Origin: an uncultured Ruminococcus sp. | GTDB lineage: Bacteria; Bacillota; Clostridia; Oscillospirales; Acutalibacteraceae | DNA length: 64,000 nt | NCBI GenBank assembly: GCA_902768825.1 | Contig: CACXMR010000001.1 | Location: 44,361-108,360, forward strand | Direction: 5' to 3' | In this document: one piece after another, positions 850 through 35,554 of the stretch | Layout: every line of letters begins with the position of its first letter | Numbering within the stretch: the first letter of the stretch is position 1 | The notes under the pieces: generated by a model | Seen by the model: the letters and a program-made list of their open reading frames with translations, nothing else | The model's database searches: none | Told to the model about the DNA's origin: nothing | Made by a program: the position numbers and the translations under genes

Positions 850-861
850 CGGAGAATGACA

Positions 862-1674: not shown

Positions 1675-1711
1675 ACTGCCGCAGTATCAAAAGCTGCGGC
1701 AGTAGTTTTTT
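1675..1711. terminator. Bidirectional rho-independent terminator
   Basis: A perfect 10-bp stem (ACTGCCGCAG with CTGCGGCAGT) encloses a 9-base loop. It is followed by a T run on the plus side and preceded by an A run that serves the minus side. It lies between the convergent response regulator and STAS genes. Confidence 0.9.
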
Positions 1712-2006
1712 ATTCTATATCAAAGACATCGGTAAGCCCCGTCATATCAAAAATATCCATTATGACATCGTTGACATGGATGAACTTCATCTTGCCCTGC
1801 TTGTCCATAATTTTCTGTGCATTCATCAGCTCACGCAGGCCTGCCGAAGAAAGGTATCTGAGCTTTTTCAGGTCAAAAACAAGCCCAGTGACTCCCCCGA
1901 TGTTTTCCTTGAGAAATTCGCTGAATTCAGGCATCGTTGTGGTGTCAATGCGCCCCTCCGGACTGACTGTCAGCTTGCTTCCGTCTTTTGCAGATTTGAT
2001 TTCAAT
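1710..2006 (-). CDS. STAS-domain anti-sigma factor antagonist (SpoIIAA/RsbV-like)
   Basis: A single STAS domain of about 98 aa. The loop YLSSAGLRELMNA carries the serine that is phosphorylated in SpoIIAA/RsbV proteins. In the known partner-switch scheme the unphosphorylated form frees a sigma factor from its anti-sigma kinase; here the kinase and phosphatase are encoded directly upstream. Start choice is unusual. A clean AAGGAG (about 2015-2020) overlaps the upstream stop and sits 8 bp before an ATT codon at 2006. The only conventional in-frame start, TTG at 2039, has no ribosome site. An ATT start is therefore proposed. No sigma factor gene is nearby, so the output may be a non-sigma target. 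Confidence 0.85.
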   Translation of the reverse strand: MEIKSAKDGSKLTVSPEGRIDTTTMPEFSEFLKENIGGVTGLVFDLKKLRYLSSAGLRELMNAQKIMDKQGKMKFIHVNDVIMDIFDMTGLTDVFDIE

Positions 2007-2019
2007 TTTAGTGACTCCT

Positions 2020-2415
2020 TTACAGTTTCTTTTTTGCAATCAGAATATTCTGGCCGTTTTTATTTTCATAGCTGAGATTATCCATCGTATTCCTGACAAT
2101 GAACATTCCGAGACCGCCGATGGGTCTGTCGTCAAAGGGAACATCGATATCAGGCTCCTTTGCGGTTAACGGATCAAAGGGCTTGCCGTCATCCGTAAAG
2201 GTCAGGGTTATGGTGTTGTCCTCGTCTTTGGAAAAGCTGACACGAATAAAGCTTGCCCCCGAATATCTGACGATGTTTCCGCATATCTCATCGACAACGA
2301 TCTCTATCTTCATCATCGTTTTTATGGGGCAGCCGGATTCTTCCAGTCTGCTGCAGACAAAGTCATCGATCTTGTGGAGATTTTTAACCGATGCGCCCAC
2401 CTCGAATTCATCCAT
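2020..2415 (-). CDS. Anti-sigma serine kinase, RsbW/SpoIIAB-like ATPase
   Basis: The protein is 131 aa with one GHKL-type ATPase fold. It has an N box (EIVVDEICGNIVRYSG), a G1 box (TFTDDGKPFDP) and a G2-like segment (PIGGLGMFIVRNTMD). This class phosphorylates the STAS partner on serine and often sequesters a sigma factor. The start at 2415 has GAGGTGG upstream and overlaps the end of the SpoIIE-like gene by 8 bp, which suggests translational coupling. The order phosphatase, kinase, STAS is a complete partner-switch set. Confidence 0.85.
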   Translation of the reverse strand: MDEFEVGASVKNLHKIDDFVCSRLEESGCPIKTMMKIEIVVDEICGNIVRYSGASFIRVSFSKDEDNTITLTFTDDGKPFDPLTAKEPDIDVPFDDRPIGGLGMFIVRNTMDNLSYENKNGQNILIAKKKL

Positions 2416-3953
2416 ATTCAGCCACCTCTGTTCCCTTGTATTCAAGGCACAGCATCGTCAGATCGTCATACTGCGGTGCGTCCTGAACAAAGTCGTCTAC
2501 GGACCTTCTTACTTGGGAGAGTATCTCCTTTGGAGTGCCGTTTTGAGCTCTGCGCAGGGCTTCAAGCATTCGATCTGTTCCGAAGAGCTCCTCCTTTGCA
2601 TTGGTGGCTTCCACGACGCCGTCGGTATAGAGGAAAAGCTTTGACCCCTTTGTGAGGGTCAGCTCATAGGTCCTGTATTTTACCATATCCATATAGCCCA
2701 CCATGAGACCATGCTTATCCTTATAAAGCTCAAAGCTGCCGTTGGGTTCCTTAAGAGCAGGCTGCTCATGTCCGGCATTTGCGGCTGTAAGTATGCCTGT
2801 TTTTACGTCAAGTATTCCCAGCCATACAGTCACAAACATTCCCTCACGGTTGTTTTGACATATCTGATAATTCGTTTTTTCAAGGGCGGCCTTGGGATCC
2901 TTTGTCATCAGAGTATAATTCTTCAGCATAATCTTGGACGACATCATAAACAGCGCCGCAGGCACACCCTTTCCCGAAACATCCGCCATTACCAGCCCCA
3001 GGCGGTGGTCATCAACCATAAAGAAATCATAAAAGTCCCCGCCGACCTCCTTCGCAGGATCCATTGAAGCGTAAATATCAAATTCTTTTCTGTCCGGGAA
3101 CGCAGGATATTCGCTCGGCAGCATATCCTCCTGTATCTTTGTCGCCAGAGACAGCTCCGTGTCAAGCCTTGTTACCTCCGCCTTCTGCTTTTCATATTCC
3201 TCGGATTTTATTCTGAGTATGGACAAAAGAAGATATGTTGTAACAATGACCGTAGCCCACATAATGAAGGGATAATCCGGGAACACGGCCTTTAGCACAG
3301 CAGCCACAATGGGAGCGGCTATATAGACCCACATGGCAATGAGCAGCTTCCTGTCAAAGCTTTTGCGGTATTTCACAAGCAGTATGCCGTCCAAAAGCAG
3401 CATGGCGCGGGAGATATATTGGATATGAAGTAGAGATTTCCCTGTATAAAATTGATGAAGATAAGCCCATTCCCGAGCTCTAAAATCGGAAAGGTATAAT
3501 ACATTCCCGTAAACTGAGAAACGATGAGCAATATGATATTGATTCCCAGCAATGCGGAAAAGATGGCAAGACAGGACTTCTTCATTTTCTTTATGCCCGT
3601 ATTATTGAGGATAAACACCGAAATGACAAAAACAATGACTCCCGACATCAGGAACTCCGCAAAGCTTATAACAGGAAGAATAAACCTAAGACTGTTCCAG
3701 CGAAACTCCAGCAGAACCTCCCTTAAAAATGAGAGGTGAGATATACAATAACGGAAGCCGAAATGGTCAAAAAAAAGCGCCGGATATTCTTAGGATAAAG
3801 AGAATTTCTTGACTGCGAAATGCACATGATGCAGGCGCCGATACCGATAGGAATAAGAAAAAGAGTAAGATAAAACAATAGTCTCGGAAGATCGGTGTGG
3901 ATCAAAGATTCCCAGCTGCTAAAGCTTTCTTCATTCACGACATAGTCCCCCAT
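2408..3953 (-). pseudogene. Membrane SpoIIE-type PP2C phosphatase, two frameshifts in membrane part
   Basis: The C-terminal 330 aa are intact. They contain a short coiled coil (about 75-90) and a full PP2C/SpoIIE domain (GGDFYDF, DVSGKGVPAALFM, YTDGVVEA), the class that dephosphorylates STAS proteins. The N-terminal half is a multi-helix membrane domain lying in two other frames. From ATG 3953 (AAGGAGG 8 bp upstream) the frame stops at 3723; adding one T to the T5 run at 3725-3729 carries it on as LREVLLEFRWNSLRF. A second break near 3404-3414 is an extra AT in an ATATAT tract, whose removal joins NIS to RAMLLLDG. As written, only a soluble fragment starting at about 3403 could be made. Two errors or two real lesions are both possible. 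Confidence 0.8.
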
Positions 3954-4070
3954 TGGCACGGCCTCCTTATCATAAGCTTTTGTCCCATATTATTATATCA
4001 TATAAACTGCCACAAATGAAGAGACAAATCAGCAATTTGCAGTGTAATTTCCGGATAACCGAGGCACAGC

Positions 4071-16207: not shown

Positions 16208-18616
16208 TTATTCATCGTCTTGCTGTTCTTTTTTCTTTTTAAGACTGGGCAGGATAATCAGCACAGCGATAACCACTCCCAACAGGAGACCGATACCTAC
16301 GCCCATGGCAAGTGCGCCTATAGAGAACACTGAGCCTTTGGTATTTTCTTCTTTGCCCTTATCATTTGTGGTCTTTGGGGTGTTTGTCTCAGTGGCTTTC
16401 ATTTTCATAGCCGCAACGGTATCTTCTCCATTCTTGAAATATACATAAGTGCCCTTCGCACCATCGTTATAGCAGTAGTATCTGGATGTAAGGTTGAATG
16501 CCGGTTTTTCGCCGAAACGATGGATACCTGTTTCATAGTCGCTCGGGAGTTTGTCAGTGCCCTTGACTACCTTAATGGAATCAACAAGAATAGGCTTGCC
16601 GTATTCGTATCTCACGCTGTAAAGTGCGAGCCACTGCTTGCCAACATCGCCGTTAAGGTCGCTTGATGTGCCGAGAACCTTGTAATTATCCTTTTCTACA
16701 TCGCTGCTGCCTTCCTTGCGGTTGCAGGGAACAACTTTATAGTATGCCGTCTGGTTATTGATAACTACCTTATTGCCGTTGATCTCCTGAGTAATATCAA
16801 CCTCATCAACGATATATTTCGGGATGGGAGTAAATGTAACCTTATAGTAATCGATCAATTCGGTGATATTCGTATAGATCAAGTAACCCGCAAGCAATAC
16901 TCCGAGCACAGTGAATCCGATGGTAAAATAGTAAGCCACTTTGGATTTTGTGGCATAGCCCATAGCCTTGGCCCAAAGTGCGTCCGTGTCAACATTTTCT
17001 GAAACCGTACTGGCCGCATCATCAAAACAGTCGATGTCATAGGTGGTAAACGATTCAAACCAAGCTTGTTTTGCCGGTTCAACGGAATTCAGATATTTTA
17101 CATGAAGTCCGTAGCTTGCAATGGCAGCCATCCCGGATACTCCTGTAAGACCCATGATAACAAAGCCCAGGGTAGAAAGCATAAAGTCGCTGTCATCGTC
17201 CTTAGCGTTCGCTCCCAAACGAAGAGCTGCATTGGTCAGGGCAACACCGCCGGGCTCATAGATCTGGCGGTCAACATCCTGATAAAAGGAAGCCTCCGGT
17301 ATATCTTTAATATCCAGTTTTTGATATCCTTCCTTCTTAGTCAGTGCCATTGTAAACAGATCGGTTATAGAAAGAAAATCAAGTCCCGCTATCTGGCCGG
17401 GAGACAATGCTGCTGCTATGGGATAAAGTGAACGGATACCTTCACCTGCAAAAACACTCTGATCTTTTTCAAAGAAATCCAGCAGAGTGCCGTCCTCATA
17501 TTCGATCTCGCTGATGTAGTCAACGACAGTGACCTCTTCAAGCCTCGACACCGCGCTTACATAATCCACACCTGCTTCAAAGCCCATGGCAATAGTATCA
17601 TTATCTTCCTTAGTCGGATTTTCGGTGTCGATTTTTCCGATTTTTTCGGCTAATGAATCATCAACGGTCTGCTCGGCATTGGCTACCTCGTTAAGCATAT
17701 CATCACGCATGTCGATGACATTGTAAAACTCGCCCCACTTTTCATATATCTTCCTGGCGGTGTCGTTATACTTTTTGTCAAGCGCTGCGTCGATATCCGC
17801 TTCTGTTGTGAGAGAGGGGTTCTCTTTCTTTATCTGCCTCTTGAGATCCTCAGGCTCTATTTTTAAAAAGCGGTCAAGCCATGTATTGTTTGAGCTGTCG
17901 GTTGCCCTTGAGATCAGTGTTTCCAGCAAAAGCACCGCTCTGCCGTTGCCCTGCATTAAAATTGTAATAATATCGGCATGCTTTTTCTTTTCTTTGTCAG
18001 AGAGGGCTTCATATTCTTTGTCGCCCAGCTCATACTTGGTTTTGTTCAGGAGAAGATCGCCCAGAGGCTTGCCTGTATCATCATCCTTCAGCTTGTTGAG
18101 CATCTGACGGTAATAATTTGCTCTGATGTAATTGATAGTATTCTTCGGCTTTTTGTAATTTGCCCTATACTCTTTTAGTGCGGCAATAAAGCGATCAACA
18201 AACGGCAGTATTTCGCTTTCAAGGTGGTTAGCCATAAGGACTTCATAATCCTGAACGATGTAACCGCCGTTCATGTTCATAACGGCAAGGTCGGTTATAG
18301 CCTGCTTCGGGTCATCTGTGGTCTTGTAGCCGATATAGACGATCTTTTTTGTCGGACCTTTTTTCAGATCACTGGTGGTACCGGCTTTTTCGTTCAGGTC
18401 GGCATAACTTCCGTCGTCGCCCTTGATGATGGTAAAGCCCTCTGCCAAAAGCTCCTTTGCGGCTTCTTCGGAGGTTTCGCCCATGCCCACCTTTACCTCG
18501 CTGATGTAAAGGGGTTTTTTTACGTTTTCCGCAGGGGCTGCCATTACCTGCATCGGTATCATCAACAGTGAAATACACAATATCAATGCAGTAATGATCT
18601 TCAGTGTTTTTTTCAT
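16208..18616 (-). CDS. Secreted anchored protein with MABP-like modules and internal membrane hairpin (802 aa)
   Basis: The signal peptide ends near MQVMAAPA. An N-terminal beta module follows (about 30-110: ADLNEKAG..., KKIVYIGYKTTDDPKQAITDLAVMN), then a long helical domain (about 120-450) and two hydrophobic segments (about 470-495 and 545-575). A second beta region (TPIPKYIVDEVDI, DLNGDVGKQWLALYSV, KGTYVYFK) leads to a C-terminal membrane helix and a KKKK tail. ATG 18616 has AGGAG 8 bp upstream. It is the first gene of a long unit and is preceded by the shared promoter element. It is clearly paralogous to the 808-aa protein and, over its front half, to the 1727-aa protein. I recognise no known function; the fold assignment is a visual resemblance. 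Confidence 0.8.
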   Translation of the reverse strand: MKKTLKIITALILCISLLMIPMQVMAAPAENVKKPLYISEVKVGMGETSEEAAKELLAEGFTIIKGDDGSYADLNEKAGTTSDLKKGPTKKIVYIGYKTTDDPKQAITDLAVMNMNGGYIVQDYEVLMANHLESEILPFVDRFIAALKEYRANYKKPKNTINYIRANYYRQMLNKLKDDDTGKPLGDLLLNKTKYELGDKEYEALSDKEKKKHADIITILMQGNGRAVLLLETLISRATDSSNNTWLDRFLKIEPEDLKRQIKKENPSLTTEADIDAALDKKYNDTARKIYEKWGEFYNVIDMRDDMLNEVANAEQTVDDSLAEKIGKIDTENPTKEDNDTIAMGFEAGVDYVSAVSRLEEVTVVDYISEIEYEDGTLLDFFEKDQSVFAGEGIRSLYPIAAALSPGQIAGLDFLSITDLFTMALTKKEGYQKLDIKDIPEASFYQDVDRQIYEPGGVALTNAALRLGANAKDDDSDFMLSTLGFVIMGLTGVSGMAAIASYGLHVKYLNSVEPAKQAWFESFTTYDIDCFDDAASTVSENVDTDALWAKAMGYATKSKVAYYFTIGFTVLGVLLAGYLIYTNITELIDYYKVTFTPIPKYIVDEVDITQEINGNKVVINNQTAYYKVVPCNRKEGSSDVEKDNYKVLGTSSDLNGDVGKQWLALYSVRYEYGKPILVDSIKVVKGTDKLPSDYETGIHRFGEKPAFNLTSRYYCYNDGAKGTYVYFKNGEDTVAAMKMKATETNTPKTTNDKGKEENTKGSVFSIGALAMGVGIGLLLGVVIAVLIILPSLKKKKEQQDDE

Positions 18617-18679
18617 AAGAATCACTCCTATCTGATTTTTTTACAGAAATAACACAATAGTTTATGTCTTTTCAAATAT

Positions 18680-18752
18680 ATTGTACAACACCAAGGGGGA
18701 CAATAGTGGGGACAAACATTTCCCTCATCCCCATTTGTAACAAAATTGTAAC
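18680..18752 (-). promoter_or_regulatory. Shared surface-gene promoter element, copy A
   Basis: On the minus strand the -10 is TACAAT (18685-18680). Ten bases upstream is the octamer TTGTCCCC (18703-18696), and 12 bp further a second identical octamer (18715-18708). After 20 bp comes a 17-bp block (18752-18736) close to TTACAAAACTGTAA. No normal -35 is present, which suggests an activator-dependent promoter. The same layout is found at 23414-23485 and 29870-29941. Confidence 0.8.
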
Positions 18753-18793
18753 TACTGCTTTTGGCTTATTCAAGTAAGCACTGACTATGCTGT

Positions 18794-18836
18794 AAAAAAA
18801 ATCAAAGCAGATACAGCACTGAGCCGTACCTGCTTT
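18794..18836 (-). terminator. Rho-independent terminator after the S41 peptidase gene
   Basis: A 14-bp stem (AAAGCAGGTACGGC with GCTGTATCTGCTTT, two G-T pairs) with a 5-base loop is followed by GA and eight T on the minus strand. Confidence 0.9.
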
Positions 18837-18850
18837 ATATGCAGCTGATA

Positions 18851-20821
18851 TTATCTCATTTTTCTTTTAGCGGTGACTGCACAGAAAGCGCCTGCAGCAA
18901 CCATCATAACCAATACGATCATAAGCACCGGTGTACTGTCGCCAGTCTTTACATTATCATCACCGGATGTCGGAGTGGGAAGTGCGGACTCCTGCTCTGA
19001 GGGCTGTTCCTCTGAGGGCTCGTCCTGAGAAGGCTCGTCCTTTGAAGCATAAAACTCGTCAATAAGAGATGCCATACTTTCATAATCATAAAGCCCGCTG
19101 TAATCGGTCTGCTCTTTGCCGTCCGAATCAATATATCTGCTTGTCAGCTCAAAGTCCAGGGGCGCACCCATGTCAACATCCTCATTGTCTTTGTTGATAT
19201 ACTTACTGTATCCGGAGATCGTATATGCCATTCCTTCCGGATTTGTGAGCACAAACAGACCGCAGGTGCCGCCGCCGCTCCTCTCACCCAGAATTGCTAT
19301 TCCCTCGTCCTTTGCCAAAACAGGGAACAGATTGCCGCAGGAGAATGAAACCTTGGACGTGACCACTGCAAATTCAAAATCATAGGCAACGTCCTTGTCA
19401 AGATCGTTGATTTCCCCGTTAAGGTCAAAATCAACTTCGGCTGTCCGTGAAATTATGTTGCCTGTAAGAGTCTCAAGAGTTTTGAGGGACCATTTGTTGT
19501 CGTGATACTTATTGTTGGTGATGGCCGCCATCATATAAATAATTACCGCACTGCTGCCGCCTGTGTTGCAGGATACGTCTATGACAAAGCGCTTAATTCC
19601 ATTCTGGGCAGCATAATCAAGGGACCACTTGAAGGCATAGACCACCTCATTCAAGAAAGAATCAAAAACAAACACACCTGTGTCACCCACCCTGTAGAAG
19701 CGGGACCCTGAGCCCTCGTCCCAGCTCTTTACAAGCTCATATTTTTCAAGCTCTGTATTCCTTTTTTGGGGAAGACTAAATACCTGCATCTGGCTGAAAA
19801 CTAATCGTGTAACATAATCTGTCAGCATCTGGCAATGTGGGCTTGTAGTGTCAGCCTTCACCTTAATCAGTTCCTGACCAATTTCGGTATCTGCCAGACG
19901 TCCCATAAAGAGCATACTGCTGAGATTGATCATTGTATGCCCGCCGTCAGAAAAATCATCCGCAAGATAGCACAGGCCAATAAGGTAGTCTATCATACTC
20001 TCCGAAAAAAGGAGCTGTTTGGCTGTTCTGGAGTCGTCACTGTATTCATCAAGGGTTTTGTCAAAGCCCTTTTCTGCAATGCTGTAGGAAATGGGTGCCT
20101 TTGCAGGACAGCCGTATAAGCTGTCAATGGCAAAGCAAAGCTCGTAATAGGTGTATCGGATGCTTTCGGGGGTGCGTGGCTTGTTGCTGTAATCAATCAC
20201 GTCTTCAAAGTATGTACCCTTCATGTTGGCAACTTCAACTGAGTTGAAGAAATAGATCGCACCCTTTACATATTCGGCGGCGTTGTAAGTGGAAACACAA
20301 ATATCGCTGATGGTGGTCAGCGGGAAATAAGCCTTGCCGTCATCTTCGATGATGTCCAGTCCGTATTTTCCAAGATCGAGAGTCAGGCTTTTTACTTCGC
20401 CCTCAAACACTGGGTTTCCTTCAGAACAGTAGGGCACATCAAACAAAGTACCTTCCGATACCGTAGGCTGTGAAACAAAGCTCTCAAACCCGTCAAAACA
20501 GAGGGTGTCATTTTCCGCATCAACGGTCATGCTTCCCTCCTTGCAGGACACGGTAACAGTGCCGTCATCGTTTTTGCTCTCGGTGTATGGCACTGTGTAT
20601 ACGGAGTTGAGATAATCAACCGCATCAATATATGGCATATCGGGAAGGGCTGAGGTAAACAGACACTCGATCTCTTTACTGTTATTCATGTTATAAAGAT
20701 AAGCTGTCACACTTCTTTTTTCGATGGCATCACTTACCGCACTCACCGGGGCAGGTGCCGAAACAGCAAGCACCATGGCGCCTGACAGTATGACGCCTAT
20801 TATTGATAAGGATTTTTTCAT
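18851..20821 (-). CDS. Surface-anchored S41-family (CtpA/tricorn-like) peptidase
   Basis: The protein is 656 aa: signal peptide (ending PVSAVS), a roughly 350-aa N-terminal region, then a C-terminal S41 core. In that core FVIDVSCNTGGSS is the family's IDLR-N-GG strand. VVTSKVSFSCGNLFP holds the likely nucleophile serine, and ILGERSGGGTCG is the GE-T-G segment. A Pro/Glu/Ser-rich spacer leads to VKTGD, a hydrophobic helix and KRKMR, a sortase-like sorting signal. It lies 87 bp downstream of the 808-aa gene with a hairpin between, so it is probably in the same unit. A role in cutting neighbouring surface proteins is inference. Confidence 0.8.
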   Translation of the reverse strand: MKKSLSIIGVILSGAMVLAVSAPAPVSAVSDAIEKRSVTAYLYNMNNSKEIECLFTSALPDMPYIDAVDYLNSVYTVPYTESKNDDGTVTVSCKEGSMTVDAENDTLCFDGFESFVSQPTVSEGTLFDVPYCSEGNPVFEGEVKSLTLDLGKYGLDIIEDDGKAYFPLTTISDICVSTYNAAEYVKGAIYFFNSVEVANMKGTYFEDVIDYSNKPRTPESIRYTYYELCFAIDSLYGCPAKAPISYSIAEKGFDKTLDEYSDDSRTAKQLLFSESMIDYLIGLCYLADDFSDGGHTMINLSSMLFMGRLADTEIGQELIKVKADTTSPHCQMLTDYVTRLVFSQMQVFSLPQKRNTELEKYELVKSWDEGSGSRFYRVGDTGVFVFDSFLNEVVYAFKWSLDYAAQNGIKRFVIDVSCNTGGSSAVIIYMMAAITNNKYHDNKWSLKTLETLTGNIISRTAEVDFDLNGEINDLDKDVAYDFEFAVVTSKVSFSCGNLFPVLAKDEGIAILGERSGGGTCGLFVLTNPEGMAYTISGYSKYINKDNEDVDMGAPLDFELTSRYIDSDGKEQTDYSGLYDYESMASLIDEFYASKDEPSQDEPSEEQPSEQESALPTPTSGDDNVKTGDSTPVLMIVLVMMVAAGAFCAVTAKRKMR

Positions 20822-20855
20822 AATGCTACGCTCTCCTATAATATTTTTTATACAG

Positions 20856-20892
20856 CCCAGGCTATGCAGATCGTTTTACCCCAAAGCCTGGG
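20856..20892 (-). other. Intergenic hairpin between the 808-aa gene and the S41 peptidase gene
   Basis: CCCAGGCT pairs perfectly with AGCCTGGG around a 21-base loop. No T run follows on the minus strand, so it looks like an mRNA processing or stability element rather than a terminator. Confidence 0.5.
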
Positions 20893-20908
20893 ATTATTGT
20901 TTGGTTCC

Positions 20909-23335
20909 TTAAGCCTCGCCGGCTTTTTTCTTTCTGATACGAGGCAGGAGAATCAGTACGGCTATACCGCCGCCAAGAAGCAATCCGATGCCTGCGCCCA
21001 ATGCAATAGATCCGGCAGAGAAAAACGAACCCATTTTATTATCGCCGTTGTTTTTAGCATCGGTTGTATTGCCGGTGCTTGTCTCTTCGGTTTTCATTGT
21101 CATAGCCGCAACGGTATCTTTTTCATTCTTGAAGTAAACATAAGTACCCTTCACGTCATCGTTATAGCAGTAATATTTGGATGTAAGGTTAAATGCCGGT
21201 TTTTCTCCGAAACGATGAATGCCTTTCTCATAGCCGCCGGGGAGAACGTCACTGCCCTTTACTACCTTAAATGAATCCGCAAATATAGGATTGCCGAATT
21301 GATATTTCACACTGTAAAGAGCGAGCCACTGCTTGCCCACGTCTCCGTTGAGGTCGTTTGCAATACCGAGTATCTTATAGTTATCCTTTTCAAAATCGCT
21401 GCTGCCTTCCTTGCGGTTGCAGGTAACGACTTTGTAGTATGCCGTCTGATTATTGATGACTACATTAGTGCCGTTAATTTCCTGAGTAATATCAGCCTCA
21501 TCAACGATATACTTCGGGATGGGAGTAAAATCAACCTTGTAATAGTCGATCATTTCCTTGAAGGTCGTATAGATAGAGTAACCGGCAAGCAGTACCGCTA
21601 TGACTGTAAAACCGATATAAAGAAAATGAGTTACCTTGGATTTTGTAATGAGCTTTTGGGTGGCATCATAAAGCCGGTCCGCCTCCGTAAAAGCTTTCTC
21701 AACGCCTTCCTCGGTCATGTTGCCTAACGCTACATAGTCGATACTATAATCATCTGCACCCTTACCGATCCTGGTGACATACGCAGTCCATGCTTCTCTG
21801 CCGTTGGCTTTGATGGAATCAAGAGTTCTCAGATAAACCGCCCGGCTTTTAATTGCTGCAAAGCCGGACAATCCGGTAAGACCCCAAAAAACAAAGCCGA
21901 GTGGACTGAGCAGAAAGTCGCTGTCATCATCTAATGCTTTTACTCCTTCGCGCAGAGCCGCATTCGTCAGAGCAACGCCGCCCGGCTCATATATCTCACG
22001 GTCAACATCCTGATAAACGGAAGCGGTAAGCATATCCTGGATTTCCGCATCTTTATAGCCTTCCTCGTTGACAAGTGCCATATTAAAAAGATCCACGAAC
22101 GAAAGGAAGTCAAGGCCTGCGATCTGACCATTTGATAACGAAGCGGCTAAAGGATAGAGTGAACGGATAGTATCAGCTGATAATTCGCTCATGTCACGTT
22201 CAAAAAAATCCAGCAGAGAGCCGTCTCCGTATTCGGTCTTGCTAAGATAGTCAACAACAGTAAGCTCTTCAAGCTTTATTACTGTGCCCACATAGTCGGT
22301 GCCTGCTTTATAAGCCTCTGACAGATTCTCGGCATCCTCCTTAGTGGGATTTTTCAGATCTATTTTTTCAACCTTTTCAGCTAAAGTATCGTCACCGACC
22401 GGCTCGGCATTTTGTATCTCATTGAGGGAGTCCTCTCTGTCGCAGATGATCTCGTACAAATCACCCCACTTTTGATATAGCTTCATTGCGGTATCGTTGT
22501 ACTTTTTGTCAAGCTCTGCCATGATATCCGCTTCTGTTGTAAGAGCAGGATTGTCCTCTTTGATCTGCGCTATCAAATCATCCGTATTCAGCTTTTCAAA
22601 ACGGTCAAGCCATGTGTCATCGGCGCTGTCGGACGCCTTTGTAATAAGCGCTTCAAGCAGAATGATCGCCCTGCCGTTGCCCTGCATAAGTATAGTGAGG
22701 ATATCGGCGTGGTTTTTCTTTTCGGCATCGGAAAGAGCGTTGTATTTGTCGTCGCCCATTTCGTATTTTGTTTCATTCAGGAGAAGATCGCCCAGAGGCT
22801 TGCCGCCTGTATCGTCGTCAGTAAGCTTGTTGAGCATCTGGCGGTAAAAATCGGCTCTGATGTGATTAAGCGTATTCTCCGGCTTTTTGTAGTTTTCTCT
22901 GTATTCATTGAGTGCGGAAATAAAACGCTCTACAAAGGGCTTTATCTCGCCTTCAAGGTGGTTTGCCATAAGTGTCTCATAATCCTGAACGCTGTAACCG
23001 CCGTTCATGTTCATTACAGCAAGGTCGGTTATTGCTTTTTTAGGGTCATCGGTGGTCTTATAGCCGATATAGACGATCCTGTTTTTCTTACCTTTCTTCA
23101 TAACGCTGTTAGAACCGGCTTTTTCGTTCAGGTCGGCGTACTTGCCATCGTCGCCCTTGATAATGGTAAACCCTTCCTCCAAAAGCTCCTTTGCGGCCTC
23201 TTCGGAGGTACTGCCCATGCCGACCCTTACTTCGCTGATGTAAAGGGGTTTTTTTACGTTTTCCGCAGGGGCTGCCATTACCTGCATCGGTATCAGTAAT
23301 AGGGAAATACATAATATCAACGAGGTAAGGACCAC
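20909..23335 (-). CDS. Paralogue of the 802-aa MABP-like membrane protein, stop codon at ancestral codon 4
   Basis: The protein is 808 aa as read from GTG 23335. It has the same layout as its paralogue: signal peptide (LILCISLLLIPMQVMAAPA), beta module with IVYIGYKTTDDPKKAITDLAV, helical domain, two membrane segments, second beta region (DLNGDVGKQWLALYSV), C-terminal helix and RKKK tail. Aligned with the 802-aa gene, the natural start is GTG 23350 (AGGAG 8 bp upstream), but codon 4 is TAA at 23339-23341. Translation could only proceed by re-initiation at GTG 23335, giving a signal peptide without its lysines. It may be a very young pseudogene or a re-initiation device; the rest is intact. It is first in its unit and preceded by promoter copy B. 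Confidence 0.8.
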   Translation of the reverse strand: MVLTSLILCISLLLIPMQVMAAPAENVKKPLYISEVRVGMGSTSEEAAKELLEEGFTIIKGDDGKYADLNEKAGSNSVMKKGKKNRIVYIGYKTTDDPKKAITDLAVMNMNGGYSVQDYETLMANHLEGEIKPFVERFISALNEYRENYKKPENTLNHIRADFYRQMLNKLTDDDTGGKPLGDLLLNETKYEMGDDKYNALSDAEKKNHADILTILMQGNGRAIILLEALITKASDSADDTWLDRFEKLNTDDLIAQIKEDNPALTTEADIMAELDKKYNDTAMKLYQKWGDLYEIICDREDSLNEIQNAEPVGDDTLAEKVEKIDLKNPTKEDAENLSEAYKAGTDYVGTVIKLEELTVVDYLSKTEYGDGSLLDFFERDMSELSADTIRSLYPLAASLSNGQIAGLDFLSFVDLFNMALVNEEGYKDAEIQDMLTASVYQDVDREIYEPGGVALTNAALREGVKALDDDSDFLLSPLGFVFWGLTGLSGFAAIKSRAVYLRTLDSIKANGREAWTAYVTRIGKGADDYSIDYVALGNMTEEGVEKAFTEADRLYDATQKLITKSKVTHFLYIGFTVIAVLLAGYSIYTTFKEMIDYYKVDFTPIPKYIVDEADITQEINGTNVVINNQTAYYKVVTCNRKEGSSDFEKDNYKILGIANDLNGDVGKQWLALYSVKYQFGNPIFADSFKVVKGSDVLPGGYEKGIHRFGEKPAFNLTSKYYCYNDDVKGTYVYFKNEKDTVAAMTMKTEETSTGNTTDAKNNGDNKMGSFFSAGSIALGAGIGLLLGGGIAVLILLPRIRKKKAGEA

Positions 23336-23413
23336 AAGTTATCTTTTCACTAAAATCACTCCTATCTGAATAATTTACAGAAACACAACAATAGTTTATT
23401 TCTTTTCATTTAT

Positions 23414-23485
23414 ATTGTACAACACAAAGGGGGACAATAGTGGGGACAAACCATGCCGACTTTTGGCTTGTTACAAAACTGTAAC
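23414..23485 (-). promoter_or_regulatory. Shared surface-gene promoter element, copy B
   Basis: The -10 is TACAAT (23419-23414), with octamers TTGTCCCC at 23437-23430 and 23449-23442 (period 12 bp, 10 bp from the -10). The 17-bp palindrome-like block GTTAC-AAAACT-GTAAC is at 23469-23485, 19 bp from the outer octamer. The leader down to the start also resembles copy A. Confidence 0.8.
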
Positions 23486-23509
23486 CGTTTTTTATACCAT
23501 GCATGTTGG

Positions 23510-23590
23510 GACGCTGTCCCAGACCCTGCCAAGGGAGCTTCTCACCCCTTGGAACCCTCGGCAGGAACGCATTCCCTGCACCCATCATAA
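23510..23590. repeat. Dispersed 80-bp intergenic repeat, copy 1
   Basis: This segment matches 49014-49092 with only about nine differences. Its core can fold: CCTGCCAAGGG pairs with CCCTCGGCAGG with one mismatch, and a smaller AAGGG/CCCTT option lies inside. No reading frame is conserved convincingly. It resembles small non-autonomous repeat families of Firmicutes. Confidence 0.85.
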
Positions 23591-23660
23591 AAAACATAAA
23601 TATACTATGCAGGCTATTATCAGTTCTGCCGAAACAAAAGTCAGACAGATTTTTTGGGGA

Positions 23661-23689
23661 TTGTAAACTTATCCCGAATATGGTATGAT
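23661..23689 (+). promoter_or_regulatory. Sigma-A-type promoter for the L,D-transpeptidase-like gene
   Basis: TTGTAA (23661-23666), a 17-bp spacer, then TATGAT (23684-23689). It lies about 34 bp upstream of the proposed start. Confidence 0.65.
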
Positions 23690-23722
23690 TGATTTAACCT
23701 ATTAACGAAAGGACAAGTTGCC

Positions 23723-24493
23723 ATAAAAAAAAGCATACAATCAAAGGCAATCGCACTGGCACTGGCTGTAGCCACAGCGTTTTCTGCGTCAATGATGCTG
23801 ACAGGCTGTACACAGCAGAAAACCGAAAACAAATCAACACCCGCCGCAACACTGTTTTCTGACCGCCATAACCTCGGTGCCTCCCCCGAATGGGTCACAA
23901 AGCTCGATGCCGCAAAGGATGCGGATCAGCTGATCGTTGTGGCCGGCTATGACAAAAACACCGCCTATGTTTCCATGCACGAAAAGGACTCAAACGGCAA
24001 GTGGCAAAAGATCATCTCCTCCCCCGGCCTGATCGGTCTTGACGGCTTAGGACAGGCTAACATTGAGGATGCGCTGACTCCGGTGGGCACATTTACCATC
24101 GACAAAGCCTTTGGTCTCGCTGATGATCCCGGCTGTCAGATGGAATGCACCAAGGTAGACGACACCTACTACTGGTCGGGTGATCCCAAAAACCACTTCA
24201 ACGAGCTGGTAACCATCAAAGACGTCCCCGATCTCGACACCAATGAGTGCGAGCATATTTCGGACTATCAATATCAGTATCAGTATGTGCTGAATCTCGG
24301 CTTCAACTCCGAGTGTGAAGTGAAAAACGGCTATGCCTTTTTCTTCCACTGCTTCGGTGACAGAAAGCCCTATACATGCGGCTGTGTTTCAGTGCCGGAA
24401 AATATAATGAAGATCATTATGCAGAGCATAAAGTCCGGCTGTAAAATCACCATCGACAGCATGAAAAACCTGAACGCAAGCTTTGACGATTGA
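23723..24493 (+). CDS. L,D-transpeptidase-like (YkuD-fold) lipoprotein
   Basis: The protein is about 256 aa. A lipoprotein signal peptide (KKSIQSKAIALALAVATAF, lipobox MLTGC) is followed by a YkuD-type domain. TPVGTFTIDKAFG is the family's entry motif, then YYWSGDPKNHFNE, a histidine in FFFHCFG, and the catalytic cysteine in TCGCVSVPENIM (the usual arginine after GC is replaced). Such enzymes make 3-3 crosslinks in peptidoglycan or attach proteins to it. The only start that keeps the whole signal peptide is ATA at 23723, with AAAGGA about 9 bp upstream. The first ATG, 23792, would remove it. ATA may be a rare start or a mutated ATG. Confidence 0.8.
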   Translation: MKKSIQSKAIALALAVATAFSASMMLTGCTQQKTENKSTPAATLFSDRHNLGASPEWVTKLDAAKDADQLIVVAGYDKNTAYVSMHEKDSNGKWQKIISSPGLIGLDGLGQANIEDALTPVGTFTIDKAFGLADDPGCQMECTKVDDTYYWSGDPKNHFNELVTIKDVPDLDTNECEHISDYQYQYQYVLNLGFNSECEVKNGYAFFFHCFGDRKPYTCGCVSVPENIMKIIMQSIKSGCKITIDSMKNLNASFDD

Positions 24494-24550
24494 TCAGACA
24501 TAAGGGGCATGCTGCCATTTTTGCACAAGCATAAACTACGCAATAAACAA

Positions 24551-24597
24551 AAGCATTATAACCTACATCTCTGGTGCAGGCTATAATGCTTTTTCTT
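24551..24597. terminator. Bidirectional rho-independent terminator
   Basis: AAGCATTATA and TATAATGCTT form the stem, extended by imperfect inner pairs. TTTTT follows on the plus side and TTTTGTTT on the minus side. It serves the converging transpeptidase-like gene and the 872-aa cell-wall protein gene. Confidence 0.85.
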
Positions 24598-24636
24598 TGG
24601 AAATCAATTAATTACTGCTGCTTTGGAATAAGCTTA

Positions 24637-27255
24637 TCAATTTGTGTGCTTCCTGCGTCTGAGCAGTGCCATTGCCGCCCCTGCCATAAGTGCAAGAACC
24701 AACGCTGCTGCAACGGGTGCACAGCTGTCGCCTGTTTTGGGTACATCATGTTCGGGAACGACAATCTCAGGATATGGCTCATCGTCGTCATCACTTCCTG
24801 CACTATAGCCGCAGCGTATCGGGATCCAATCAGAATAGTTGACTTTTCCGTTGGCGCTTCTGAGCTGAACATGGTAATCGCCTGGTTTTTTAAAGGTAAC
24901 GTCTCCGTTGGAATCAAGTAAAACACCATCCGCCTCAGTTTCCTTTGCTACCCAGATATACTTTGGTGCCTTGACCTTGTTTCCTTCACTGTCGGTAAAT
25001 CTTACAGTCAGCTTGTTGGCGCCTACAATATTATCCTTTGTTTTGCCGACATATCCTCTGTAGAAGCCTGTTACCTTAACGCCGTATCCGCCGCCGGTAG
25101 ACTGATAAACAGGAAGGGGTGCATAATAGTCTTTTCCGCCGAAGGTCACCATTTGCTTGCTGACAGAAGTTCCATCCTTCCGTTTGACCTCAACGGTTTT
25201 TGATTTAAGTGTTTCCTGATGCTTGCAGTTGGGATTTGAGCAAGTAAAGACAGCTGTTGCAAAGTAGTAATCCTCATCCCACGTCCAGACAGGCTTGCCG
25301 TAGGTGTGTGCGTCGGTAAATTCGTATTTGATGCTATTTGCCATGGTGTCAGGTGACCCTTTGAAGGTGGTTTTGTGGGTCAGACGGACAGTGACGTTCA
25401 TTTTATTGAACGCACCCTCTCCGATGGTTACCTTTCCGGGATAATCCAGCTTCAGATCCAGGTTATAGTCTCCCTTACTGTTTACCCGTGAAAAGGCGTG
25501 ACCGTCAATCTTTTTAAGCCCTGAGGTGTCGCCTGCAACCTTGGTTACTCCCATGGAGAAGAAAGTGTATGGCTTGATCTCGGTGTTATTCTTATTGAGC
25601 TTCAAAACGAACTGGGTATCATAATCCGGGTTGGTTATAAAAGCACTTAACTGATCGTTTCCGATGACAGTTACCGGTTTTCCGTTGTAGCTGGCGGGAA
25701 TGACAAGCTCCTTGATGTCCTTCATTTTGCCTGTATATGCGTTTATCTGGTATGTGTCATCAGTGCGAAGCAGGAAAACGAAGTCAGAAACAGTAACGTC
25801 CTCGACCTCGGTGCCGAGAGTTCCGTCCTCGTTGATCTGGTATTTTTTGCCGTCGATCACGGTATATGCAATGTTGCCGGGAATGTAAGCTCCATTTTCA
25901 TCAATATACGCTCTGTTCCTGGGAACTATATTTGTAAACCTCACGGTAACGGTAATGCAGCTTTCGGGCATTGCAAAAAGCTGTTTGTCAGAAGAAATGA
26001 CATTGCCCTGTTCATCGGTCACGGTCACGGAAGCAAGGATACTGCCGGCATCGGGGGTAACTGTCAGAGTAATGTCATCCAGTGCCTTTGCCTTTGTTTT
26101 GTCGGCTGTTGCGGTACCGCTTCCCAGAGCGGTGACAGTAATATCGAACCACTGCCTTACCCGCTTTTCGGTAGAATAATTCTTTCCGAGGAAGGTGCAG
26201 GAGGCTGAATAGACGATATAATCACCGTCCACGGCAGAGGTCACCTTTGCGTCAGCACTATACTCTGTGCCGCATCCGTCGTCAGTGCAGACAAATTTAA
26301 CTGTCGCACGGCTGTTATCACCCGACCAATTCCACTGGGGTTCTGCGAAATTATGATTTTCCATATAAGGGATCAGCTTCTTACCCGTGAGAGCCATTAC
26401 CTGATTTCCTGTCAGAAAGCCGGAATAGATATTGCCGCCCTCGTCAATAAACGCCTGTCCGTCAGTCACCTTGAGCGCAACATCGATGGGTTTTCTGTAA
26501 AATCCCTTCAAATAAATGCTGTCCGAGGGATTTGTCCAGCCCATCTCCAGCCATGGTTTATTATCCAGTGCGGAGTCATCTCTGTACGTCTTGATATTTC
26601 CGCCTTTGATGACAATACCATACTGAGAATAAGTGAACCTCCCGATGTCGAGTGTTCCGCGGATGATATTGGTGTGATGTTCTCCGCCAAAGGCGTTATC
26701 CTTTTGAATAATGATGCCTCCATAGACACTGGCGCTTGATACGGAAATAGAGTTATCACAAAAGTCAATAGTTCCTGTCTGATTGTGCTGACCATACAGC
26801 GACAGCTCCCCTCCGGTCCTGCTATAGATCATGATTTTCGTTGTATCAATCGGGTTACCGGATAACCGGCAGCCGTCTTCCAGTATCAGGTGGACTTCAC
26901 CTCTGAGGTAAAGACTATCCAAAAGGGAATAGTTACCCTTAAAAACATACCAGCCGTCCGGAAGGAGCAATCCCTCCAAGTCGCTTTCAAGCACCTTTGC
27001 GGGCACTGTCCTCTCAATACCGTCCTCGTCAATATACGGCGTATCCTCAACACTCATATACACAGCATAAAAAGATCTGTTGCTTGCCTTTACTACCTGA
27101 CGTGCGACATAGCAATCAAACCCGCCTCTGGTACGCCAGCAGACAAATTCCTTTCCTTCCGGTACATTCGTGGGTTCGGGCATGGCATATTCCCATTCAT
27201 AGGGTAATACTACTTCTGTAGATACAGTTTTTCCGTCGCTGCCCAGTTCATCCAT
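24637..27255 (-). CDS. Cell-wall-anchored repeat protein, C-terminal part of a split giant gene
   Basis: As read, 872 aa with no signal peptide. It contains beta-rich regions, a BspA-type LRR section (about 550-650: LVIPASYNGKPVTVIG, GHAFSRV, IGEGAFNKM), a region with C-x-x-CKHQ pairs, and a C-terminal sorting signal VPKTGD, hydrophobic helix and RRRKHTN. Upstream bases still encode the continuation HEWNSDKVCTVCGAKADLV in the frame of the 813-aa gene. They reach this frame by a 1-base shift near 27262-27272 (...DLV to YYEMDELG). It is thus probably the C-terminal half of one roughly 1.7 kaa protein. Without the N-terminal half it cannot be exported, so as written it is likely non-functional. 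Confidence 0.75.
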   Translation of the reverse strand: MDELGSDGKTVSTEVVLPYEWEYAMPEPTNVPEGKEFVCWRTRGGFDCYVARQVVKASNRSFYAVYMSVEDTPYIDEDGIERTVPAKVLESDLEGLLLPDGWYVFKGNYSLLDSLYLRGEVHLILEDGCRLSGNPIDTTKIMIYSRTGGELSLYGQHNQTGTIDFCDNSISVSSASVYGGIIIQKDNAFGGEHHTNIIRGTLDIGRFTYSQYGIVIKGGNIKTYRDDSALDNKPWLEMGWTNPSDSIYLKGFYRKPIDVALKVTDGQAFIDEGGNIYSGFLTGNQVMALTGKKLIPYMENHNFAEPQWNWSGDNSRATVKFVCTDDGCGTEYSADAKVTSAVDGDYIVYSASCTFLGKNYSTEKRVRQWFDITVTALGSGTATADKTKAKALDDITLTVTPDAGSILASVTVTDEQGNVISSDKQLFAMPESCITVTVRFTNIVPRNRAYIDENGAYIPGNIAYTVIDGKKYQINEDGTLGTEVEDVTVSDFVFLLRTDDTYQINAYTGKMKDIKELVIPASYNGKPVTVIGNDQLSAFITNPDYDTQFVLKLNKNNTEIKPYTFFSMGVTKVAGDTSGLKKIDGHAFSRVNSKGDYNLDLKLDYPGKVTIGEGAFNKMNVTVRLTHKTTFKGSPDTMANSIKYEFTDAHTYGKPVWTWDEDYYFATAVFTCSNPNCKHQETLKSKTVEVKRKDGTSVSKQMVTFGGKDYYAPLPVYQSTGGGYGVKVTGFYRGYVGKTKDNIVGANKLTVRFTDSEGNKVKAPKYIWVAKETEADGVLLDSNGDVTFKKPGDYHVQLRSANGKVNYSDWIPIRCGYSAGSDDDDEPYPEIVVPEHDVPKTGDSCAPVAAALVLALMAGAAMALLRRRKHTN

Positions 27256-27323
27256 TTCATAGTAACCAGATCAGCCTTTGCTCCGCAGACGGTACAGACT
27301 TTATCACTGTTCCATTCATGCCT

Positions 27324-29765
27324 TCACTTTTCCTCAATAAACTGTTCGCCGCAGGATTTACAGGCCTTAACATGGTAAACGCCATCATAAAATTTCCATA
27401 CGGTATTTTTGTGCTCACAGGGGTATATTTCTACGTTCTTACTGATCCGCATTTCTGAAACGCCTTTAGTAGCGTTATATACTACTTTCTTGATTTTGAC
27501 CTTGAGCTTGTTTCCAAGCTTCACTGTGCCAATTTTTCTGGAAAAAGTATAGTCGCCGTTACCGATGGCTATGCACCAGCCCTTGTTGCCTGCAATAGCC
27601 TTGACTTTGGAGGTATTGTCAATGTCGCAATAACCGCCGTCAGCGTCTTCACCGCCGCCGATGCCTGCTCCGTAATGATTGCCTTTAGCGTAGACATCGG
27701 AATAAGCATGGATATAGACATTACCGCCGTGACCGTCCTCACCGCCGCCGATGCCTGCTGCGTCCTTGCCGCCGGTAGCAGATATTTTAGAACCGGAAAT
27801 TCTGACAGTACCGCAGCTTACATCGTCACCGCCGCCGATACCGGCAGCATATTCTCCGCCCTTGGCAGTTATCTTTGAATTGTAGTTGATCTCTATATTG
27901 AAGGTGCGGGTTTTTGACTCGTTGCCGGTGCCGATACCTGCGCCTTCTTCGCCGCCGTTAGCTTCAATAGTGGATTCATTGATATAAACGCTGCTGATGC
28001 CGTTTGCTTTGTTGCCCGAGCCTATACCTGCGCCGCACTCGCCGCCGGTGGCCTTGACTTCGTTGCACTTGATGATCACAATTTTTATAGACGAGGCAGT
28101 TGTTTCGTTGCCTGTGCCGATAGCTGCCGCATTCTTGCCGCCGAAAGCTTTGATCTTGGAATTTTCGATTCTGATCTCGCCGGTGCCGGTGCCTTCGTTG
28201 CCGGTACCGATGCCTGCGCCAAAATCATCGCCGTGAGCTTCTACGGTGCTGTTTATTATGCTGATAGATTTGATCCCGCCCTGCTTTGAAGAACCGATAC
28301 CGGCAGACTGGAGGCCGCCGTTTGCAGTGACGGTGCTGTTTTTGATGTTGATGCTAACAACGCCGCCTCTTGAGCCTGCACCGATGCCTGCGCCAAAGCA
28401 CTCGCCGTCGTCGTCAGCAAGATTTGCGATGAACTTGAGCCCTAACTTAATAGCAGAAAGAGTCATCGCAGGGATGCTGCTCATATCCATATCCACTTCT
28501 TTTATCGCTTCGCTGATGGATTCACTAATCCTATCCATACCATTAAAAAATTTGTTGTTTACTTCCTTATTGAATGCTTTCGCTTCAACGACAGCGTCAG
28601 TGATGTTGATCTCATTTGCATTGGCGCCGTATTGTTTGCCGCCAACGCCCTTCAGGCTGCGCATACCGGCACCGATACCTGCGCCGCCGGAATAAGAGTG
28701 AGCAGTCACGTTGCCGCCTGTAATATTGATCTTGTAGGAGTCTCCGCAGGCTCCTGAGCCGATGCCGGCTCCCCTTACCGCTCTTGCGTATATATTGCCG
28801 CCGTGGATATTGATTTCATCGACCTGGTCGCCATTCTCACCGGTGCCGATACCTGCGCCAGACTCTGACGAATAGGCGTCGATGATGCCGCCGTAGATAT
28901 CTATTTTTCCGGTGCGGTTGCCTTTGTAACCGCCGCCGATAGCCGCTCCGTTTGTGCTCTTAGCCTGGATCTTGCCTTTATAGATGGCAATGAAGCCGCT
29001 TTTGCCGTTGTTGCCGTGGCCGCAGCCTATTCCCGCACCATATTTGCTTTCCGCAGTGATGGAACCGCCGTAGATAATGAGACCTTTGCCGGACTCACGA
29101 CTGGTAGGAGACGAAATGCCTCCGCCTATAGCTGCTCCGTAACCAGACTTAACGTCAATAGTGCCGCCGTAGATAGTTATTCCTCCCGTTGAACCTAAAT
29201 TACCGCCGCCTATAGCTGCACCTTTTAAAAACTCGGTAGGATCCTTGAGGGTCAGCGTGCCGCCGTAAATGTTGATAGCGCCCGAGGCGCCGTTGGTACC
29301 GCCGATGATGGCGTTATCAAAATATCCTGGATATGTTTCCTCAAGCTTTTCATAGGTGTATTTCTCAGCGAAAGTAATGGCGCCTGTGCCTTCCCACTGT
29401 GCATAGATATTCAGCGTAGCATTGGCACCCACACCGATACCGTAGATGGTTTTAAGTTCAGCGTCATCGCACAGGATAAGATTGACCGTTCCGCTGTTGA
29501 TCATCAGACGCTTATTGAGGGATATGCTTTTGGTAAGTGCATACCATCCCGCCGTCAGATTCACGTCCGTTTTTTCATCAAGGATCTTGTAGTCCTTGCA
29601 GAACATTTCCTTGTACATGATCTTTGTGCCGTTCCATGAACGCTGGATATAAGACATTCCTTCCTCTTGCCCCTCTGCGTTCACCCCAAGGGGTAAGATC
29701 GTGAATATTCCAAGCAGCATAATTACTGATAGCAGGATACTCACAGGTTTTTGCAGTTTTTTCAT
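27324..29765 (-). CDS. Secreted glycine-rich repeat protein, N-terminal part of a split giant gene
   Basis: The protein is 813 aa as read: signal peptide (to about 31, ending LGVNA), then a long array of 20-30-residue repeats of the type GAGIG-G...INI-GG-I-A. It probably forms a beta-helix-like stack, as in many Clostridia proteins annotated as carbohydrate-binding. The C-terminus has CEHKNTVWKF...HVKACKSCGEQF, a cysteine-pair motif that normally repeats. After the TGA at 27324-27326 the same frame continues with RHEWNSDKVCTVCGAK, the expected next cysteine pair, so the stop interrupts a longer gene. AAAAGGAGG precedes ATG 29765. Promoter copy C lies upstream. Truncated here, the product would be secreted without a wall anchor. 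Confidence 0.75.
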   Translation of the reverse strand: MKKLQKPVSILLSVIMLLGIFTILPLGVNAEGQEEGMSYIQRSWNGTKIMYKEMFCKDYKILDEKTDVNLTAGWYALTKSISLNKRLMINSGTVNLILCDDAELKTIYGIGVGANATLNIYAQWEGTGAITFAEKYTYEKLEETYPGYFDNAIIGGTNGASGAINIYGGTLTLKDPTEFLKGAAIGGGNLGSTGGITIYGGTIDVKSGYGAAIGGGISSPTSRESGKGLIIYGGSITAESKYGAGIGCGHGNNGKSGFIAIYKGKIQAKSTNGAAIGGGYKGNRTGKIDIYGGIIDAYSSESGAGIGTGENGDQVDEINIHGGNIYARAVRGAGIGSGACGDSYKINITGGNVTAHSYSGGAGIGAGMRSLKGVGGKQYGANANEINITDAVVEAKAFNKEVNNKFFNGMDRISESISEAIKEVDMDMSSIPAMTLSAIKLGLKFIANLADDDGECFGAGIGAGSRGGVVSINIKNSTVTANGGLQSAGIGSSKQGGIKSISIINSTVEAHGDDFGAGIGTGNEGTGTGEIRIENSKIKAFGGKNAAAIGTGNETTASSIKIVIIKCNEVKATGGECGAGIGSGNKANGISSVYINESTIEANGGEEGAGIGTGNESKTRTFNIEINYNSKITAKGGEYAAGIGGGDDVSCGTVRISGSKISATGGKDAAGIGGGEDGHGGNVYIHAYSDVYAKGNHYGAGIGGGEDADGGYCDIDNTSKVKAIAGNKGWCIAIGNGDYTFSRKIGTVKLGNKLKVKIKKVVYNATKGVSEMRISKNVEIYPCEHKNTVWKFYDGVYHVKACKSCGEQFIEEK

Positions 29766-29869
29766 TTGGATTCCTCCTTTTAAAATTCTTTCCGGGTTCC
29801 AAATATTTATATCAATACCATTTTATGGTATTTTGCCTATAAATATCTGAGAATTATTGCTTTTTATAT

Positions 29870-29941
29870 ATTATACAATACAAAAGGGGACAAAAGAGTG
29901 GACAAATTCAAAAAATATCTCACTTATTACAAAACTGTAAT
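29870..29941 (-). promoter_or_regulatory. Shared surface-gene promoter element, copy C
   Basis: The -10 is TATAAT (29875-29870), followed upstream by TTGTCCCC (29893-29886) and TTGTCCAC (29905-29898, one mismatch) with the same 12-bp period and 10-bp distance. The block TATTAC-AAAACT-GTAATA is at 29925-29942. The rest of the 29766-30126 gap holds the amidohydrolase promoter and AT-rich DNA. Confidence 0.8.
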
Positions 29942-30029
29942 ACTTTTTTGTGCTTTTTTTCACATTTCTTTCCTTTAGTCCCTGCAATAACCACTTCTTT
30001 ATTCGTCAATTTTATAAAGCAAATAAAAA

Positions 30030-35368: not shown

Positions 35369-35440
35369 AGGCGTCACCCGGATTTGAACCGGGGAATCGG
35401 AGTTTTGCAGACTCGTGCCTTACCACTTGGCTATGACGCC
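35369..35440 (-). tRNA. tRNA-Cys(GCA)
   Basis: Cloverleaf with acceptor GGCGTCA/TGACGCC, anticodon loop CTGCAAA, T-loop GTTCAAATC, discriminator U as expected for Cys. CCA is not encoded. Last of five tandem tRNAs. Confidence 0.93.
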
Positions 35441-35475
35441 GTATAAAAAAAGAGCTCAAAAAATATCAAGCTCTT

Positions 35476-35551: not shown

Positions 35552-35554
35552 ATA

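Follow-up and report, generated by a model that had tools for sequence, protein, structure and literature searches.

The closest described counterparts of the system reported here are PhoB and the SARP activators (AfsR and kin). In the available excerpt of PMC1906773, PhoB sites are given as direct repeats of 8 bp joined by a 3-bp linker, the downstream one lying 10 bp from the -10 box, and the excerpt of PMC10936776 places the direct repeats of SARP activators 11 bp apart near the -10 box, overlapping the -35. Here we analysed 64,000 nucleotides of contig CACXMR010000001.1 from an uncultured Ruminococcus sp. (the window), in which three promoters, A, B and C, share tandem TTTGTC(C) repeats ahead of the -10 box and, further upstream, a 17-bp block, called here the TTACA block. 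Judging from the sequence, we regard it as probable that the repeats bind the response regulator whose gene occupies 856-1656; the regulator would activate transcription in place of a -35 box, and the TTACA block would serve a second factor. None of the titles listed in the literature searches describes this system, which does not exclude that it is already in print.

Architecture and rarity of the promoters

Each of the three promoters lies on the minus strand ahead of its gene (A, B or C) and reads toward it (Table 1). In gene orientation the order is the 17-bp block, 18 or 19 bp, TTTGTC, a second (A/T)TTGTC 12 bp on, 13 bp and TACAAT or TATAAT. The block follows the consensus (A/G)TTACA(A/G)TTTTGT(A/T)A(C/T)A across the three promoters, and its end is separated from the first TTTGTC by 19 bp in A and by 18 bp in B and C. 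The period of the repeats is 12 bp in A, B and C, and the second TTGTCC begins 18 nt ahead of the -10 box in all three, leaving 10 bp between octamer and -10 box. The original prediction had described shared elements at fixed spacing before three genes, and all of them could be located on this strand; its octamer was recovered in A and B, but the first octamer of C is TTGTCCAC instead of TTGTCCCC. Its statement that no -35 box is present is one interpretation of the sequence. The hexamer 17 bp upstream of TAYAAT (CACTAT, CACTAT and CTCTTT in A, B and C) is not -35-like, but an overlapping TATATT (A), TATAAA (B) or TATATA (C) stands 17 bp from TTGTCC in the second repeat.

The composite pattern is not a product of chance. 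It was observed three times in the window, whereas 300 first-order Markov copies gave no strict match and a single loose one in total. In the 2.49-Mb genome to which the window belongs, TTGTCC-N6-TTGTCC-N10-14-TANAAT occurs three times (control 0), a 28-bp core allowing up to 3 mismatches matches the three promoters only, and a 16-bp core of the block has exact matches only at A, B and C (with up to 1 mismatch, 6 matches in all vs 1 in the control). The octamer alone, matched 6 times in the window where 1.78 matches are expected (2 shuffles in 100 also reached 6), was dropped as evidence by itself, its excess being too weak. A fourth exact TTGTCC-N6-TTGTCC (on C20) was rejected as a promoter, as it lies inside a reading frame. 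A dedicated regulon had been proposed, which scattered strict sites in the genome could have refuted; the genome scan returned A, B and C only, all within about 11 kb, and thus supports a small regulon.

Three further observations concern these motifs. Loose TTGTCC-N6-TTGTCC matches (up to 3 mismatches) are in excess over the whole window (100 vs 54 expected), possibly through codon usage. A lone GGGGACAA stands at 35952, upstream of five consecutive tRNA genes (window 35369-35789, minus strand), and a copy of the TTACA block with one mismatch, without a TTTGTC repeat site, lies between genes of 572 and 170 amino acids (aa) at position 10084 (+) of locus L130.

Conservation of the elements

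Genes A and B are paralogues, gene B being 69% identical to A and their leaders 80% identical, so that the promoters could be read as duplication copies of one another with no special regulator. We give this reading almost no credence. Gene C is unrelated to A and B, and in ungapped comparison of B with C the block and the stretch from the repeats to the -10 box are each 84% identical, whereas the linker between them (30%), the leader (39%) and the upstream region (30%) are not conserved. From the repeats to the -10 box, A and C are 81% alike. The linker of A is one base longer, which puts its block out of register in the ungapped count (37-47% to the other promoters), and its letters match the block pattern exactly despite this low figure. 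Moreover, the orthologue of C in G001 and a homologue of A and B in G012 have this block and these repeats ahead of them at the same distance, and in other species the layout recurs, with different letters, beside one regulator lineage. Elements that are kept while the linker between them varies in sequence but hardly in length, and that recur in other genomes before orthologous genes and next to a single regulator lineage, sustain the earlier claim of regulation rather than mere duplication.

Sites and regulator in related genomes

For comparison we used 64 genomes of the genus and a 398-genome sample of the family. Ahead of the homologues of B in G037, G023 and G042, TTTGTC recurs after 11 bp, and the distance to the -10 box is 13 bp as in the window. 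This period-11 form gave 18 matches in 9 of the 64 genus genomes against 2 control matches. Nine of the 18 fall on contigs carrying a regulator orthologue, which total 0.21 of about 143 Mb (a sum made by hand from the genome table), these nine not being all independent, as four lie on one G037 contig. The 18 form a mixed set: several are near-identical copies among G037, G023 and G017, the letters differ in the three of G008 and in one of G031, a second G031 match resembles part of a TTTGTCGGTAC tandem array, and that of G035 fell outside the detailed study.

Taking regulators at least 45% identical as one lineage (our own cut), this lineage is present in 10 of the 64 genus genomes, the window's own included, and in G224, G231, G289 and G307 of the family sample, a count that includes split or partial matches in G016 and G039 and a gene with an internal stop in G023. 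A site lies on the regulator's contig in 10 of these 14 genomes (G000, G044, G042, G024, G037, G017, G023 and G224, and as a TTTGTA variant G307 and G231). Within the genus, regulator and motif occurred together in 7 genomes, the regulator only in 3, the motif only in 4 and neither in 50 (Fisher p 5e-5), motif genomes being those matched by the period-11 or the strict-composite scan, with G012, found by other scans only, left out.

In G044 a site heads an operon of a SpoIIE-type phosphatase, HATPase_c_2, STAS, a LytS-like kinase and a response regulator; in G017 and G024 a site is located upstream of that kinase-regulator pair and diverges from it. The window protein at 856-1656 is an 80% orthologue of this regulator, and the kinase at 1-743 stands alongside it. 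In G224, which belongs to another genus, the site lies between the regulator and a reading frame of 1,739 aa, and in G307 and G231 the TTTGTAAC variant adjoins the start of the kinase and is divergent from it. A row of B homologue, kinase and regulator follows the site in G023 and G037, and a site heading a run with both signalling genes suggests that the pair may control itself there. The TTACA block is absent from the period-11 sites checked. Within 120 bp, even the closest match differs at 3 to 6 positions at 13 sites in relatives other than G001 and G012, against 0 in these two, and the block marks A, B, C and their relatives in these two genomes.

Among 15 collected sites, 9 have a period of 11 and 6 a period of 12, at equal distance to the -10 box. 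TG stands at -15/-14 in 7 of the 9 period-11 sites (TATG in 6), a feature of extended -10 promoters, and together with the PhoB- and SARP-like geometry it favours a head-to-tail dimer that activates from the place of the -35. The same regulator could instead repress from the same sites, the dimer blocking an ordinary promoter whose -35 is TTGTCC, as the hexamers 17 bp downstream of it in A, B and C would allow. We find this unlikely, since that hexamer varies among the three promoters and is TATAAG in G001, whereas the one at 12 bp is constantly TAYAAT in these four, since the TG just described belongs to a TAYAAT-type box, and since the sites are positioned like those of the activators PhoB and SARP.

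The sites might also be used by a global regulator, either Spo0A or a PhoP/PhoB-type phosphate regulator. The Spo0A box is TTTGTCRAA, which TTTGTC resembles, and the geometry is PhoB-like. Such a regulator is nevertheless very improbable here: the genome holds just the three strict sites in their 11 kb, the sites of the relatives adjoin one local regulator lineage, and both units of all 9 period-11 sites carry C as the second letter following TTTGTC, where RAA needs A. In the 6 period-12 sites the first unit has C (4), A (1) or T (1) at this second position, and as a set the sites do not follow the Spo0A box.

In its stricter form with TATAAT, the loose TTTGTC pattern gave 36 matches in 28 of the 398 genomes against 16 in the control (our tally). 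A regulator-type domain was found near 6 of 32 loci (covering 34 of the 36 sites) against 0 of 9 control loci; most of these sites are therefore without a neighbouring regulator in the stretch examined. Separately, G008 carries seven TTTGTC-repeat matches (control 0) on C45, C48, C85, C98 and C111 (loci L118-L120, L211 and L212), with second units of TTGTCAT(A/T) type, perhaps the regulon of another regulator.

The candidate regulator and its proposed action

The N-terminal part of the regulator is a REC domain (PF00072, residues 5-114; E 7.9e-23, 81.2 bits vs a cut-off of 30.2). For the C-terminal part, an OmpR/PhoB-like winged helix-turn-helix (wHTH) is predicted, and with E limited to 1 Trans_reg_C (PF00486) is matched by 6 of the 11 domains taken from orthologues (best 0.00042); BTAD is absent among the Pfam matches of these 11 domains at the same limit. 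LytTR is likewise absent among the regulator's own Pfam matches, and an NCBIfam LytR match spans residues 3-121 only. The tail carries QYSWAE or QYEWAE, and the kinase is LytS-like (PF06580).

In the mechanism that we favour, the adjacent kinase would phosphorylate the regulator, which would bind the tandem TTTGTC(C) repeats as a head-to-tail dimer of its OmpR/PhoB-like domain, at about -43 to -26 if TAYAAT is -12 to -7. This dimer would replace the -35 box and recruit RNA polymerase. Under this control would stand proteins A, B and C and their operons, the SpoIIE-HATPase-STAS switch and, probably, the operon of the kinase and regulator. A second factor probably binds at the TTACA block, which starts 35-36 bp ahead of the start of the first repeat, and would act at surface-gene promoters only. 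As a partner-switch module is present in the locus, the promoters might instead be read by an alternative sigma factor that the SpoIIE-HATPase-STAS switch sets free. The chances of this appear slight: TAYAAT is a normal sigma-A -10 box, the TTTGTC unit recurs after 11 or 12 bp, as a -35 would not, and the window proteins scanned, a part of all window proteins, included no recognisable sigma factor.

Further sites and genes of the locus

With a two-part position weight matrix (PWM) built from the 15 sites we searched the window plus the 20 kb on its left side; promoters A, B and C scored 45.1-45.5, and 8 Markov copies of the window reached at most 17.4. The scan pointed to a fourth, degenerate site before the SpoIIE module (Table 1), where the best match to the TTACA block within 120 bp has 6 mismatches, and to a half-site before the kinase at C1:43843, scoring 22.9 at period 13. 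Signalling genes rather than surface genes would be the further targets. Three Markov sets of 265 kb of the relatives' DNA gave no score of at least 17, and among 26 own-genome loci (78 kb) promoter C was the sole site. Another 37 loci (285 kb) gave four matches of at least 17, all at loci with a regulator paralogue; as 24 of the 37 hold a paralogue anyway (our count), the support is mild.

Table 1. Positions of the promoter elements, the candidate regulator and neighbouring genes in the window.
Feature	Position	Strand	Basis
Promoter A, -10 box TACAAT	18680..18685	-	sequence
Promoter A, tandem TTTGTCC repeats, period 12 (predicted response-regulator site)	18699..18716	-	
Promoter A, 17-bp block GTTACAATTTTGTTACA	18736..18752	-	
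Promoter B, -10 box TACAAT	23414..23419	-	
Promoter B, tandem TTTGTCC repeats, period 12	23433..23450	-	
Promoter B, 17-bp block GTTACAGTTTTGTAACA	23469..23485	-	
Promoter C, -10 box TATAAT	29870..29875	-	
Promoter C, tandem TTTGTCC repeats, period 12	29889..29906	-	
Promoter C, 17-bp block ATTACAGTTTTGTAATA	29925..29941	-	
Degenerate fourth site before SpoIIE module (TTTGTC, 12 bp, TTTGTG, -10 TATAAT)	3992..4028	-	PWM 31.9; also TATAAT-form pattern
Response regulator, REC + OmpR/PhoB-like wHTH (below Pfam cut-off), predicted to bind the repeats	856..1656	+	domain search, orthology
Histidine kinase, 3' part (His_kinase + HATPase_c); gene begins left of the window	1..743	+	
STAS-domain protein	1710..2039	-	
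HATPase_c_2 (RsbW-like) protein	2020..2445	-	
SpoIIE-type phosphatase gene, interrupted, three reading-frame pieces	2408..3959	-	
Genes downstream of A: PrsW (4122-4772), 221 aa, 1735 aa, 656 aa, 1122 aa	4122..16160	-	
Gene A, 805-aa secreted-type protein, no Pfam/NCBIfam family; first in a long same-strand run	16208..18625	-	
656-aa protein with Peptidase_S41 match, downstream of B	18851..20821	-	
Gene B, 808 aa, 69% identical to A	20909..23335	-	
Gene C, 813-aa protein, beta-helix repeats (PF18889, 12 stretches)	27324..29765	-	

Gene A encodes 805 aa if read from GTG and 802 aa if started at ATG, its fourth codon, and from their spacing only, A and the same-strand genes following it would be co-transcribed. 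An A-like start codon upstream of B is followed by an in-frame TAA, gene C terminates at a stop ahead of an 872-aa frame, and the coding signal of the kinase shifts frame near 718-731.

A possible wider TTTGT-N6 code

Twenty loci chosen for similarity to the regulator alone (30-40% identical) were scanned for TTTGT-N6 pairs before a -10 box. Pairs sharing at least 4 of the 6 variable letters, a rule set after earlier sites were known, were found at 6 of the 20 regulator loci (70 kb) vs 2 matches in 42 control loci (239 kb); without the sharing rule the scan gave 7 matches in 6 of the 20 regulator loci and 7 in 6 of the 42 control loci. The number of independent cases is below six, since L157 and L160 have near-identical sites. 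From one regulator lineage to another the variable letters change (CNCNCW, AACCTT, TGGACA, TGCACN and TATACA), and the residues of the recognition helix, the DNA-reading helix assigned from the OmpR fold, differ too, an apparent correlation over few lineages. There is, in our estimate, an even chance that a whole family of REC-wHTH regulators of these gut anaerobes follows a letter code, each reading its own 11-bp TTTGT-N6 pair in place of a -35, with the helix changing along with the letters, and that their targets are surface proteins, their own kinase-regulator operon and, in two relatives, a structured noncoding RNA.

Tandem 11-bp units of TTTGTTGGACA type were seen upstream of -10 boxes at L254, L255, L270, L279, L156, L157 and L160, in several genomes. 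At L122 (2986-3300) and L123 (9599-9890) a predicted regulator-type promoter lies beside the kinase-regulator pair with no visible gene downstream, followed by a conserved stretch of about 280 nt that looks hairpin-like in places (by eye) and ends like a terminator. This RNA-like stretch, a candidate small RNA, matches no Rfam family.

Discussion

Several points weigh against the regulator and mechanism that we propose. The match of the regulator itself to Trans_reg_C (PF00486) lies below the cut-off (E 0.00063, 20.2 bits vs 26.2), a PDB profile search with it returned nothing significant, and its single-sequence fold failed, with a predicted local distance difference test score (pLDDT) of 41. 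Our identity cut for the lineage leaves out G008, whose regulator, at 40%, had passed the limit of the family-wide search. No site was found on 4 of the 14 regulator contigs (G052, G016 and G039, 4.2-4.5 kb, and G289, 19.5 kb examined), and G001 and G012 have the motif with a best regulator match of 38% identity, in genomes 84 and 88% complete. Loose TTTGTC patterns fell below the control (18 vs about 61; family-wide 50 vs about 86, the control sums being our tallies), and the half-site before the kinase lacks a good first repeat, its score of 22.9 at period 13 dropping to 17.2 at period 12. Finally, frames look damaged in the kinase (window 718-743), SpoIIE (2408-3959), the start of B (23290-23372) and the end of C (27240-27345), so that the circuit may be decaying here or the assembly may contain errors; phase variation may also underlie these breaks. 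Uninterrupted orthologues exist for the kinase in G044 and for SpoIIE in G016 and G044.

If the regulator does read these repeats, an unnamed two-component lineage would be linked from sequence alone to its DNA sites and targets, among them large surface proteins without family names. Should the TTTGT-N6 code be true, regulator targets in Ruminococcaceae-type genomes would become readable from sequence, and the specificity of helix for letters testable over natural pairs.

By its predicted domain order the regulator resembles SAPR-type response regulators (REC-wHTH-BTAD, COG3947), a tentative label; it differs from them in having no BTAD match and shares with them REC followed by a wHTH, predicted here, and the QYSWAE/QYEWAE tail. 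From the SARP activators it differs in that its predicted wHTH is C-terminal behind REC and not N-terminal, in that no BTAD was found and in its host, which appears to be a Ruminococcaceae-type anaerobe. As far as the excerpts of PMC10936776 and PMC10972967 describe them, SARP activators share with it an OmpR-type wHTH, predicted here, and repeats 11 bp apart, few bp from the -10 box, over a poor -35. Compared with PhoB, the kinase here is LytS-like, the strict sites are at one locus and the wHTH matches Trans_reg_C weakly. Within what the excerpt on PhoB sets out, the window also differs in its linker of 4 bp (period 12) instead of 3, and agrees in the pairing of REC with a C-terminal wHTH, here a predicted one, in the octamer repeats and in the 10 bp to the -10 box, the relatives with a period of 11 matching PhoB in the linker as well.

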